64,000 nucleotides of DNA, from assembly GCF_010587385.1 (NCBI RefSeq), contig NZ_CP047475.1, positions 1,302,001-1,366,000 of the forward strand. Direction: 5' to 3'. The notes under the pieces were generated by a model. That model was given only the letters and a program-made list of their open reading frames with translations. It had not been told where the DNA came from and made no database searches. Below, in pieces: positions 21,854-35,792 of the stretch (positions are counted from its first letter, which is position 1; each line of letters starts with the position of its first letter). The translations under genes and the position numbers were made by a program. This stretch comes from Vibrio astriarenae (GTDB lineage: Bacteria; Pseudomonadota; Gammaproteobacteria; Enterobacterales; Vibrionaceae).

Positions 21854-21862
21854 CTGTGTGAT

Positions 21863-21890
21863 AAAGCTGACAATTTCAATTGTCAGCTTT
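21863..21890. terminator. Perfect 28-base palindrome after fdxB
   Basis: Thirteen-base arms (AAAGCTGACAATT and its complement) around TC. It ends the nifENX-fdxB unit, though without a T-run. The right arm is shared with the NifA site upstream of nifU. Confidence 0.65.
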
Positions 21891-21896
21891 ACAACA
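21881..21896 (+). promoter_or_regulatory. NifA upstream activator sequence for nifU
   Basis: TGT-N10-ACA (TGTCAGCTTTACAACA), about 73 bases before the nifU -24 element and overlapping the right arm of the fdxB hairpin. Confidence 0.65.
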
Positions 21897-31731: not shown

Positions 31732-31765
31732 GAATCAGGTTGTCTGAAATCAGACAACCTGATTC
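31732..31765. promoter_or_regulatory. 34-base perfect palindrome between nifA and nifB
   Basis: Sixteen-base perfect arms around AA. The centre contains the NifA-type site TGTCTGAAATCAGACA (31741-31756), itself fully symmetric. It lies past the nifA stop, about 50 bases upstream of the nifB -24 element. It may be a NifA operator, a nifA terminator without U-tract, or both. Confidence 0.7.
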
Positions 31766-31794: not shown

Positions 31795-33411
31795 TTATAG
31801 CTGCTTAAGCTCTATGTTCATCGTCTTGATTCGATAGGCAATTTGTCTTGGCGTCATGTTGAGCAGTCTAGCCGCTTTGGCTTTCACCCAGCCCGTTTGC
31901 TCTAGTGCATGAATGACTCGTTGTTTCTCTTCTTCATCAAACTCAAGGTTTAAGCCGCCATAGCCATTATTGGGTTGGTTTGCTGACCGTAGTGGTGTAC
32001 TAAATTTTGCCGGGAACGGCGTTGATTTTGGGCTACTTAGTGGTGTTGGGTTGCTAATTGAGGTTGAAAACTGTCTAGAACTATTAAGTTGAACGAGAGA
32101 AATATCGATGGTCCCGTCACTACTCAAAACGGCGGCACGCTCTATTGTATTTTCCAGCTCGCGCACGTTCCCGGGCCAGTGATAGGTCATCATGTAACTC
32201 AAGGCCTGCTCGTCGATATGGAGTTTTCGATTTTGAATGCCTGATAGTTTATCAAGAATCGAGAGTGCTAAAGCGGGGACATCATCCAAACGTTCACGCA
32301 GTGGAGGAAGGAAGATAGGCATGACATTGAGGCGATAGTAGATATCTTCGCGGAAATTGCCTTGAACGACTTCATTCTCCAAATCTCGGTTAGTTGCAGC
32401 AATGATTCTCACATCGACCGAAATAGGGTCGGTTCCGCCAACTCGATCGAAAGTTTTTTCTTGGAGAACACGCAGTAATTTTGCCTGAAAAGCGGGGGAG
32501 GTTTCACCTATTTCATCCAAAAAGATGGTGCCTCCATTAGCCACTTCAAATCGCCCTTTACGCAGTTTTACCGCCCCGGTAAAAGCCCCTTTTTCATGGC
32601 CGAAAAGTTCAGATTCTAGAAGGTTATCAGGCAGTGCTGCACAGTTGAGCTTAACAAAGGGTTGGTTGGCGCGTGGTGAATTATAGTGAATGGCGTTGGC
32701 GATGAGCTCTTTACCTGTCCCCGATTCTCCGCGAATCAAAATGGTCGAATCCCACCTTGAGACTAACCTAATTTGATCAAAGACTTCACGCATGGCCTTG
32801 GTGTTACCAACAAGCGAAGCGACACCATGTTCTTTGCGCACTTTTCGACGCAGGCCATCACGCTCACTCTTAATTTGGTCATGTTTTTTCGATACCGAAT
32901 GAGCGAGTTGGATATTGACGGTGATGAGTTTGGCGATCATCTCAAGAAAGTCATTAATGACTCGTAGATCATCATCTAAGGGGGAGTTAGGTTGCGCACA
33001 AATCACCCCAATCAACTCCTTACTTACGCTTTTTAGAGGCACTGCGATAAAAGGTTTAGCGTAATCATAGATAGCGAGTTTGTCAGCAAAACGAGGGTCG
33101 TTACCCAGATTTTTGAGAACGACGGAGCCTCCGTGTTCAAGCATCGAACCGATGATACCTTCCCCGTTTTTGTAGTTAATAGCGCTGCTTTGCGCAGAGA
33201 ACGGAGAATCAGGGGCGTGGACGGATTCGACTAACATGATGTTGCGCTCTCTATCTCGAATCGCGAGTAGTCCTCCGTATAGGTGACACTCATCGTGGAG
33301 AATTTGCATCACAGAAGCAATATTGGTTCGGTAATCGAGACTCCTATTGAGCTCAGTGCATACTCGATAGAGAGTCGAGAGCAGCTGTTTACTGGTTACA
33401 GAGTTAATCAT
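31795..33411 (-). CDS. nifA: NifA, sigma-54-dependent activator of nif genes
   Basis: 538 residues: N-terminal GAF domain (about 25-170), AAA+ domain with Walker A RGESGTGKE (227-235), the sigma-54 contact GAFTGA (275-280) and Walker B GGTIFLDEIGE, then a linker and a Fis-type HTH (WVKAKAARLLNMTPRQIAYR). The linker before the HTH is Ser/Pro-rich and holds no Cys, unlike the oxygen-sensing alpha-proteobacterial type. This fits control by NifL. It overlaps nifL by 4 bases, so the two are co-translated. Confidence 0.97.
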   Translation of the reverse strand: MINSVTSKQLLSTLYRVCTELNRSLDYRTNIASVMQILHDECHLYGGLLAIRDRERNIMLVESVHAPDSPFSAQSSAINYKNGEGIIGSMLEHGGSVVLKNLGNDPRFADKLAIYDYAKPFIAVPLKSVSKELIGVICAQPNSPLDDDLRVINDFLEMIAKLITVNIQLAHSVSKKHDQIKSERDGLRRKVRKEHGVASLVGNTKAMREVFDQIRLVSRWDSTILIRGESGTGKELIANAIHYNSPRANQPFVKLNCAALPDNLLESELFGHEKGAFTGAVKLRKGRFEVANGGTIFLDEIGETSPAFQAKLLRVLQEKTFDRVGGTDPISVDVRIIAATNRDLENEVVQGNFREDIYYRLNVMPIFLPPLRERLDDVPALALSILDKLSGIQNRKLHIDEQALSYMMTYHWPGNVRELENTIERAAVLSSDGTIDISLVQLNSSRQFSTSISNPTPLSSPKSTPFPAKFSTPLRSANQPNNGYGGLNLEFDEEEKQRVIHALEQTGWVKAKAARLLNMTPRQIAYRIKTMNIELKQL

Positions 33412-34904
33412 AATCCGGCTCCCTCATTGTCGATAGGCAGGGCAATAACAAACTTAGCACCCGAGTAAGCGCTGCTTTTCTCAACGGTAATGATACTGGC
33501 ATGATCATTGACGACTTGTTGAACAATGGAGAGCCCCAGGCCATGGCACCCCGCTTTATACGTCGGTTTCGAGCTATAAAAAGGTTCGAAAATCTTATTG
33601 CGATTGTTGGGGCTGACACCTAGGCCTGAGTCCTCGACCTTGAGCATCACCGAATCACCGTCAACACAAGAACTGATGGCAATGACCCGCTCACTGGGTT
33701 TGGCAACTTCAATTTGCTCAATTGCGTTGTCGATGAGCTGCACTAAGGCAAGAATAAGGCGAGAAGGGATCGCGTTAATCGCTGGTAGTTCCCGCTCGAG
33801 AAATAGGTCAAGCTTGATGTAGTGGGAAACTAAGTTTTGTGAACTGATACTGCACGCATCCCGAATGACTTCATTGAGGTTGGTGACCTGCATACTTTCG
33901 ACGTTACGCTCAGGAATATGATCCTGAATGTACTGAAGCGCATTAAACCCTTCATCAACCGCTTGGCTCATCAGTTCAAGCCCTTGGCAGCGATGATTGC
34001 GTCCATTCATGATTTTCACGGCTGATTGAATCATATTCAGCGGGCCTTTGAGCTGGTGGATAGTTCCCATCAACACCTCTTGCATGCTATGGACGTGCTT
34101 TCTATCGGCGATAAGTAGCTGCATTGCGCTAATGCGTTGTGCTTCGAGGAGTCTGCGTTTTTCCGTACGCTCATTGATCACTAAGATGATGTGAGGCTCG
34201 GTGCTAGGTTCAAAATAGCAATCCGCTTTACTCTCTTGAAGCGTCAGTGGGTCAACCGAACAGTGGAAACTTCGATATTGATGGTGTGTCTCAATATCGA
34301 GTTCAAGATGCTGCGAGCTTTGCCATATTTTATCGCCAAGTGCTTTCAACTCCTCTACAATTTGTGGGTAAAGCGTTTTATAGAAGAATACTTCATCTAT
34401 GTTGTCTTTGAGGCCTCGGCTAGAATAGGTGATATTAAACTCTTGATCTAGCATGACTAATGAAAGAGAACGCGTGTTTAATATTGCTGAAAATATAGAG
34501 CGATGGTTGTGGGATATCTGAGATTGGGTAAATAATTTAGTCACATCCTTTTGTATGGAATAATACCCTTCAAAGTGACTGTTTTTTATTGGGTATATTG
34601 AAACTTCAGCGATATAAGGTTGGCCACTCTTCTTACAGTTAATCAAATTTCCTTGCCATTTCTCACCATGAGTGATGGTTTTCCACAACTGTTCATAGAG
34701 AAAGTTAGGTGTGCTCGCGTTTGAAAAGATGGAACAACTTTGCCCAAGTAGTTCGGTTTTAGTAAACCCTGTCAGATCGAGCAAAGCCTTGCTGATATTG
34801 ACAATATTGCCACTTGTGTCTGTCACGACAATAGGCTCACTCACATCATCAAGTTCGATGGTGTCAATAGTTTCTAGCTGGTTGATATATTGATTAATAG
34901 TCAT
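33408..34904 (-). CDS. nifL: NifL, redox- and nitrogen-sensing inhibitor of NifA
   Basis: ATG34904 or TTG34910 is the likely start; GGAGG lies 8 bases before the TTG. About 498 residues. A PAS domain (about 20-130: EPIVVTDTSGNIVNISKALLD, SIQKDVTKL) would hold FAD, a second PAS-like region follows, then a histidine-kinase-like core. That core shows IHQLKGPLNMI (H-box with His), LIDNAIEQ (N-box), VEDSGLGVSPNN and GLGLSIVQQV (G-boxes). NifL binds and blocks NifA under oxygen or fixed nitrogen. Whether the His is functional is unknown. Confidence 0.95.
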   Translation of the reverse strand: MTINQYINQLETIDTIELDDVSEPIVVTDTSGNIVNISKALLDLTGFTKTELLGQSCSIFSNASTPNFLYEQLWKTITHGEKWQGNLINCKKSGQPYIAEVSIYPIKNSHFEGYYSIQKDVTKLFTQSQISHNHRSIFSAILNTRSLSLVMLDQEFNITYSSRGLKDNIDEVFFYKTLYPQIVEELKALGDKIWQSSQHLELDIETHHQYRSFHCSVDPLTLQESKADCYFEPSTEPHIILVINERTEKRRLLEAQRISAMQLLIADRKHVHSMQEVLMGTIHQLKGPLNMIQSAVKIMNGRNHRCQGLELMSQAVDEGFNALQYIQDHIPERNVESMQVTNLNEVIRDACSISSQNLVSHYIKLDLFLERELPAINAIPSRLILALVQLIDNAIEQIEVAKPSERVIAISSCVDGDSVMLKVEDSGLGVSPNNRNKIFEPFYSSKPTYKAGCHGLGLSIVQQVVNDHASIITVEKSSAYSGAKFVIALPIDNEGAGL

Positions 34905-34956
34905 GTTCAAAGCAACGACCTCCACAACGACGTTTTACTTAGCTATAGAGATAGGA

Positions 34957-34973
34957 AGCATTTTCCATTCCGA
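34957..34973 (-). promoter_or_regulatory. Candidate sigma-54 promoter of nifLA
   Basis: On the minus strand CGGAATGGAAAATGC has GG-N10-GC. The -24 match is weaker than at nifH, but placement ~45 bases before nifL fits. Confidence 0.6.
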
Positions 34974-35046
34974 TTGAGAGGGTTTGATTTATTTGAATAG
35001 AACAAAGGGAGTATGAATTGATCTACCTCAATGGATGGAGACAAAT

Positions 35047-35062
35047 TGTCAGTTTAGTTACA
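35047..35062 (+). promoter_or_regulatory. NifA upstream activator sequence for rnfA (shared with nifL region)
   Basis: TGTCAGTTTAGTTACA fits TGT-N10-ACA, 94 bases before the rnfA -24 element. Confidence 0.7.
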
Positions 35063-35104: not shown

Positions 35105-35153
35105 TAATACTCATGTGAATTGCATCAATTTGATGCAATTCACATGAGTATTA
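35105..35153. promoter_or_regulatory. 49-base perfect palindrome with NtrC-like core in the nifL-rnfA intergenic region
   Basis: Twenty-four-base perfect arms around one central T. The core TGCATCAATTTGATGCA (35121-35137) has the 17-base layout of NtrC sites (TGCACC-N5-GGTGCA) with one symmetric change in each half. It ends 3 bases before the rnfA -24 box and lies about 150 bases upstream of the nifL promoter. It may be an NtrC enhancer for nifLA, and it could form a hairpin or cruciform. Confidence 0.65.
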
Positions 35154-35155
35154 TT

Positions 35156-35171
35156 TGGCACTTTTAATGCA
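35156..35171 (+). promoter_or_regulatory. Sigma-54 promoter of rnfABCDGEH
   Basis: TTGGCACTTTTAATGCA: a full TTGGCAC -24 box and TGCA -12 box, GG-N10-GC. The best sigma-54 match in the window. Start near 35182, rnfA ATG at 35220 behind AGAGG. Confidence 0.88.
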
Positions 35172-35219: not shown

Positions 35220-35792
35220 ATGGATGGGTTGCTAGTGTTTTTAGGTGCAGCATTCGTTAATAACGTGGTGCTGGCTAAGTTTCTTGGGCTTTGTCCGTTT
35301 ATGGGGGTGTCAAAGAACATTGGTAGCGCTTTTGGGATGGGAATAGCGACCACGTTTGTTATCACGGTTGCAGCGACGGTCGCATGGTTGTTTGATCATT
35401 TTATTCTACAAACGATGGGGCTTGAGTATTTACGCACGATAGCGTTTATTGTCGTCATCGCTTCAGTCGTGCAGTTGACAGAGTTGTACGTCCAGAAAAA
35501 TAGCCCTTCTTTATACAAAGCTCTTGGTGTGTTTCTTCCTTTAATCACAACAAATTGTGCGGTACTGGGTGTAGCACTACTCGTCATTCAAGAAGAGTTT
35601 TCGTTCCTCTATACCTTGTTGTTTAGCTTGGGCTCATCGTTTGGTTTCACTTTGGTGATCGTTTTGTTTTCAGGGATGCGCGAGCAACTTGCGCTGAGTC
35701 ATGTACCTGAGGCAATGAAGGGGACACCGATAGCATTTCTAAGCGCCGGGCTATTGTCGATGGCGTTCATGGGTTTTGCCGGGATGGCATAG
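35220..35792 (+). CDS. rnfA: RnfA, membrane subunit of the Rnf electron-transfer complex
   Basis: 190 residues with six predicted transmembrane segments and the paired motifs NNVVLAKFLGLCPFMGVS near residue 14 and LITTNCAVLG near residue 105, each with the Cys that ligates the membrane [2Fe-2S] centre with RnfE. Rnf couples ion flow to ferredoxin/flavodoxin reduction. It is first of seven rnf genes under a nif-type promoter; Vibrio usually also has a housekeeping rnf set elsewhere, so this is probably the nif-dedicated copy. Confidence 0.96.
   Translation: MDGLLVFLGAAFVNNVVLAKFLGLCPFMGVSKNIGSAFGMGIATTFVITVAATVAWLFDHFILQTMGLEYLRTIAFIVVIASVVQLTELYVQKNSPSLYKALGVFLPLITTNCAVLGVALLVIQEEFSFLYTLLFSLGSSFGFTLVIVLFSGMREQLALSHVPEAMKGTPIAFLSAGLLSMAFMGFAGMA

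Follow-up and report, generated by a model that had tools for sequence, protein, structure and literature searches.

The nifL-rnfA intergenic region

In the window, as the whole stretch of DNA analysed (64 kb) is called here, the divergently oriented nifL and rnfA genes, on the minus and plus strand respectively, are separated by an intergenic region of 294 bp, within which a 49-bp perfect palindrome is found. The coordinates of the relevant features are reported in Table 1. NifL, NifA and RnfA, as well as NifB, score above the NCBIfam cut-offs.

Table 1. Features of the nifL-rnfA region, in window positions; strand is left empty for symmetric sites.
Feature	Coordinates	Strand	Remarks
nifA	31795..33411	-	TIGR01817
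nifL	33408..34925	-	TIGR02938; internal ATG start possible
Predicted sigma-54 promoter of nifL, GG-N10-GC	34958..34971	-	Comparison of intergenic regions
NifA-type site TGT-N10-ACA	35047..35062		110 bp before rnfA box
49-bp perfect palindrome	35105..35153		24-base arms around one T; single copy in genome
17-bp core TGCATCAATTTGATGCA	35121..35137		NtrC layout, one symmetric change per half
CRP-type site TTTGATGCAATTCACA	35129..35144	+	9 of 10 fixed positions of the assumed consensus
Predicted sigma-54 promoter of rnfA	35156..35171	+	Consensus scan; corresponding box in relatives
rnfA, first gene of rnf unit	35220..35792	+	TIGR01943

The two arms of the palindrome (35105-35128 and 35130-35153) are 100% complementary over 24 nt and surround a central T, exactly as described in the initial annotation. 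The palindrome is flanked on the left by the NifA-type site and on the right by the sigma-54 box of rnfA, and is located upstream of the divergent nifL promoter; the placement originally given, between a NifA site and the rnf promoter and upstream of nifL, was therefore correct. The rnfA box, TGGCACTTTTAATGCA, has its first base at 35156, three positions past the final base of the palindrome, and is the sole match reaching the top score (14) in a crude sigma-54 consensus scan of the window, in agreement with the 3-base gap to the best box that had been noticed at first. No TGT-N10-ACA is present between 35105 and 35153, so a NifA upstream activator site inside the palindrome was discarded as a candidate; IHF was also discarded, as the consensus that we assume for it has no match in the nifL-rnfA region of the window.

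The palindrome is far beyond chance: arms of this size, separated by a gap of at most 1, are expected about 6e-10 times per 64 kb at an assumed G+C content of 44%, and 3e-8 times at the local composition. Among the 10 inverted repeats reported by the inverted-repeat search it is the longest perfect pair, and it also ranks first in length when 464 kb of genome are considered, corresponding to the window plus twenty 20-kb stretches, about one tenth of the total: 26 perfect inverted repeats with a gap of at most 10 and arms of 13 or more were identified there, the runner-up having arms of 19. In this census no enrichment of long palindromes was seen in the window, as 4 of the 26 fall within its 64 kb and 22 within the 400-kb sample. 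The sequence is present only once in its own genome, which is composed of two contigs of 3.1 and 1.7 Mb. To our knowledge, the 16 bases found on each side of the core resemble no known motif.

Other symmetric sequences were observed in the window. Upstream of nifB, a 34-bp perfect palindrome (31732-31765) holds a NifA-type TGT-N10-ACA; here too the symmetry exceeds the regulator-type site, by 9 bases on each side, and the differences from the 49-bp palindrome are the NifA type of the site, the 16-base arms and the 2-base centre. Upstream of nifU, at 21857-21896, two inverted NifA-type sites form a 40-bp imperfect palindrome, with 19-base arms that are 89% complementary. An FNR-type site, TTGATCTACCTCAA (35018-35031), with 1 mismatch to what we take to be the FNR consensus, is flanked by the nifL promoter and the NifA-type site. 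According to the same assumed consensus, a perfect FNR-type sequence, TTGATACAAATCAA, is located at about the same place in V. agarivorans (L004), and in most other relatives this position is taken by a NifA-type site, itself 1-2 mismatches off.

Comparison with related loci

NifL was found in 27 of 227 Vibrio genomes, the one under study included. The 27 relatives used for comparison are the 26 further Vibrio genomes with NifL and Shewanella mangrovi; NifL identity is 98% to one protein, 62% to that of Vibrio sp. WXL210 and 46% to those of V. agarivorans and V. hippocampi. Loci L061, L063 and L069, being duplicates of L022, L114 and L115, were excluded from the GTGCA, CRP/FNR/IHF, 17-mer-column and shuffle counts; L026 repeats L025. 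As for the other named loci, either their genomes were represented in the set already, or they entered only the checks for arms of at least 11 and of the nifA-nifB regions. The Shewanella locus (L071) was included in the GTGCA count, the CRP/FNR/IHF scan and the shuffle test, and left out of the 17-mer column count. At some loci the match to nifL is split into two parts or contains a stop (L025/L026, genome G138; L024, genome G015; L116, genome G207); these may be decaying nifL genes.

None of the 27 related nifL-rnfA regions contains a palindrome of such length, the longest perfect arm being 11. Among the regions of 22 relatives this arm was contributed by V. xiamenensis, where a NifA-type site is found at the same place, and arms of 7 or more are missing from 13 of the 22; four further loci, and the Shewanella locus, were found to have no perfect arm of at least 11. 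Spacing, on the other hand, is directly seen to be unchanged: the divergent sigma-54 boxes are 192-225 bp apart in the relatives and 199 in the window, and the NifA-type site precedes the rnfA box by 100-110 bp in 21 of 22 relatives and by 110 in the window. Since both window values fall within the range of the relatives, sequence appears to have been replaced, not added, which indicates that the palindrome is a length-neutral rewrite and not an insertion.

In 23 of the 27 relatives a short box, GTGCA, is observed close to the -24 element of rnfA, on its upstream side, ending 9-12 nt before TGGCA, whereas 0.12 occurrences at such a place (9-13 nt) are expected from shuffled sequences. The four exceptions include V. 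xiamenensis, with TGATGCA at the expected place, a heptamer identical to that of the window, and V. agarivorans, where GTGCA is 31 nt away; no GTGCA box was found in the nifL-rnfA regions of V. hippocampi and S. mangrovi. Here, nifA-nifB regions from 13 relatives and the window served as control: all 14 have NifA-type sites and none has GTGCA, so the box is not a general feature of NifA/sigma-54 promoters.

When the 17-mers ending in GTGCA are stacked, all 23 show G at position 2, which pairs across the dyad with the C of GTGCA; the letters at positions 13-17 follow from the selection itself, as these 23 relatives were chosen for having GTGCA. The columns do not include the window (L003), L004 and L022 (where position 2 is C, not G), and L005 has no site. 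Sites with a strong TGGTGCA half and a weaker left half are also frequent upstream of glnA in 30 Vibrio genomes. The box conserved at this place in Vibrio nif clusters is a 17-bp one with the layout of an NtrC site. The alignment with other diazotrophic Vibrio genomes, proposed with the initial annotation as a check, gave a divided answer: the palindrome itself is absent from all relatives, and a box of NtrC layout is kept in most of them. Neither the box nor the palindrome is named in the titles or abstract openings of the papers found.

The core as an NtrC-type site

NtrC sites have the consensus form TGCACC-N5-GGTGCA, which is borne out by the sites present in these genomes. Against the 14 fixed positions of TGCACCA-N3-TGGTGCA, TGCATCAATTTGATGCA shows one symmetric change per half, as originally claimed. 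Like the NtrC (NR-I) enhancers of glnA and of Klebsiella nifLA, the core is a 17-bp dyad of the form GC-N11-GC with A at 7 and T at 11, and it lies upstream of a sigma-54 promoter, that of nifL, at a distance fit for looping. It differs from such enhancers by having T at position 5 where they have C and A at position 13 where they have G, and by a symmetry that extends 16 bases past the site on each side; moreover, the palindrome holds one site, unlike glnA of the same genome, which has a pair. Among 67 loosely picked sites upstream of glnA, T is found at position 5 in 22 and A at position 13 in 4.

The core reaches a matrix score of 18.6, within the range of 34 Vibrio sites located upstream of glnA (16.8-24.3), a matrix that is not independent of the consensus, because its sites were picked by it. 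The boxes of the relatives all score under the lowest glnA-upstream site, from 16.7 for the best to about -0.1 for the lowest, and in 7 of the 26 genus relatives some other place in the region outscores the box by the same matrix. The NtrC pattern with 2 mismatches was never obtained in 5000 shuffles of the nifL-rnfA region; genome-wide, 23 places are within 2 mismatches of the consensus, versus 12 in the reversed control.

MAFFT alignment pairs the right half of the core with the box of the relatives, so that, for instance, TCAATTTAGTGCAA of V. plantisponsor corresponds to TCAATTTGATGCAA of the window. The core carries ATGCA, as opposed to GTGCA in 23 of 27 relatives, and its distance to the rnfA box exceeds that in most of them by 7 nt. 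The genome directly provides for the regulator: NtrB and NtrC are encoded, and consensus-type NtrC sites are present at two places upstream of glnA (220 and 260 bp) and at the start of ntrB. The connection with nitrogen status suggested in the initial annotation is therefore favoured by the conserved box, by the score of the core and by the presence of NtrB and NtrC, and weakened by the absence of the palindrome from the relatives.

Outside the genus, 20 NifL loci were considered, 5 of them with no rnfA in reach and 1 not divergent. Of the remaining 14, all scored and all from other Gammaproteobacteria, 11 have no strong NtrC-type site in the divergent nifL-rnf region, and 3 have one, with scores of 12.9, 16.5 and 17.5, flanked by the NifA sites on one side and the rnf box on the other. 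In Klebsiella, nifLA is reported to be activated by NtrC, and in P. stutzeri rnfA is described as NtrC-dependent, with a putative NtrC site; the P. stutzeri sites are there defined as GC and GC at 11-nt spacing (PMC8443478).

Possible role and origin of the palindrome

Most likely, the palindrome grew on an older, weaker NtrC-type box. That it represents an enlarged, perfectly symmetric version of this inherited operator, serving nifLA, perhaps also rnf, and perfected by template switching, is an interpretation of the sequence that we hold at about even confidence. When nitrogen is limiting, the core, about 183 bp upstream of the predicted nifL start, would be occupied by phosphorylated NtrC, which would reach the sigma-54 promoter of nifL by looping and switch nifLA on; rnf and nif would next be controlled by NifA, acting from a site of its own. 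The distance from the nifL start would suit looping activation, while that from the predicted rnfA start, about 53 bp, is close for looping, and NtrC bound there may also temper rnf. In having an NtrC-type site near a sigma-54 promoter, rnfA resembles E. coli glnAp2 with its low-affinity governor sites, as described in PMC3870243; those sites work together with NtrC enhancers located upstream of glnAp2 itself, whereas rnfA has a NifA-type enhancer.

Measured from the centre of the box, the -24 element of nifL is found at five classes of distance (138, 158, about 170, 181.5 and 191), which share a helical face with a p of about 0.01, a result that is suggestive only, because 2 of the 5 classes moved together with the NifA-type sites. 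For L006, the distance of about 170 refers to a promoter element at position 137 of its region.

As to the arms, replication template switching at a near-palindrome would rewrite one arm as an inverted copy of the other, leaving the length unchanged. It would be the simplest explanation of the long arms, and fits because the change is length-neutral on an inherited dyad. In E. coli, template switching is reported to make near-palindromes more perfect (PMC7202029). The palindrome is like the quasipalindrome products described there in being a more perfect inverted repeat with the overall spacing unchanged, and unlike them in that we infer its origin, distant relatives carrying an asymmetric box. 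That a single length-neutral step of this kind upgraded a weak asymmetric NtrC-type box, located in the region common to the nifLA and rnf promoters, to a perfect dyad is put forward tentatively, as a possible but doubtful course of events. The same process may have enlarged the NifA-type site upstream of nifB (31732-31765).

Template switching, or another accident, could also have left a neutral by-product, in which core and arms are now without function. Consistently, the structure is not kept as a palindrome in the 27 relatives, and GTGCA has been lost from the core; the core, however, outscores the box of every relative for NtrC likeness, which a random accident need not yield, and we regard this outcome as rather unlikely. 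Somewhat less probable still is that the core serves a different regulator as its operator. The best candidate is CRP, in which case nifLA and rnf would respond to carbon or energy status; FNR is a weaker one. Taking the CRP consensus to be TGTGA-N6-TCACA, the palindrome holds one match with 1 mismatch, TTTGATGCAATTCACA, which overlaps the NtrC-type core, and a weaker mirror copy with 2; when the region is shuffled 5000 times, a CRP match as good as the first is seen in 0.94% of the cases. The palindrome also contains two FNR-type matches, each 2 mismatches away from the assumed consensus. Yet the CRP pattern is unspecific, with 190 such places genome-wide against 168 in the reversed control; an equally good match is found in only 1 of the 27 relatives, elsewhere in the region, and in none at this place, and the conserved GTGCA with its mate G is neither a CRP nor an FNR half-site.

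Structural roles fare no better. Extrusion of a cruciform, or shaping of supercoiled DNA, might tune how the NifA site and the rnfA promoter come into contact, and the palindrome has arms running 16 bases past the 17-bp core on each side and a single strand that folds with a z of -10.3, a value to be read knowing that any perfect palindrome gives such folding. No such structure is present, however, in the 27 relatives of the same architecture, and the spacing between NifA site and promoter is already the usual one; as this spacing is equal with and without the palindrome, nothing calls for a shortening device. The early suggestion of an element bringing the upstream activator and the promoter together is thus left with foldability as its argument; a cruciform role gains no support from these results, and we consider it improbable. 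Very improbable is an intrinsic terminator or a copy of a mobile or interspersed palindromic repeat. A simple scan does list the palindrome as terminator-like, but in place of a G+C-rich hairpin followed by a T-run at a gene end we find a hairpin in which 7 of the 20 counted pairs are G-C and the tail TTATTTGG, and a terminator was rejected because the palindrome sits between two divergent gene starts. An insertion or mobile repeat, for which several copies would be expected, was rejected because the palindrome is single-copy and length-neutral with respect to the relatives; among the matches listed in the 227 Vibrio genomes outside its own, all are short and partial, the best being 32 bp at 84%.

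In V. porteresiae, both nifLA and rnf are reported to be strongly up in nitrogen-free medium, in a study whose main text does not mention NtrC (PMC12625758). If an NtrC-type box is indeed conserved in the nifL-rnfA regions of Vibrio, general nitrogen status would act directly on the nifLA/rnf switch of the genus. The perfected box of the window would then offer an example of a mutational process that reshapes a regulatory site while promoter spacing stays unchanged.
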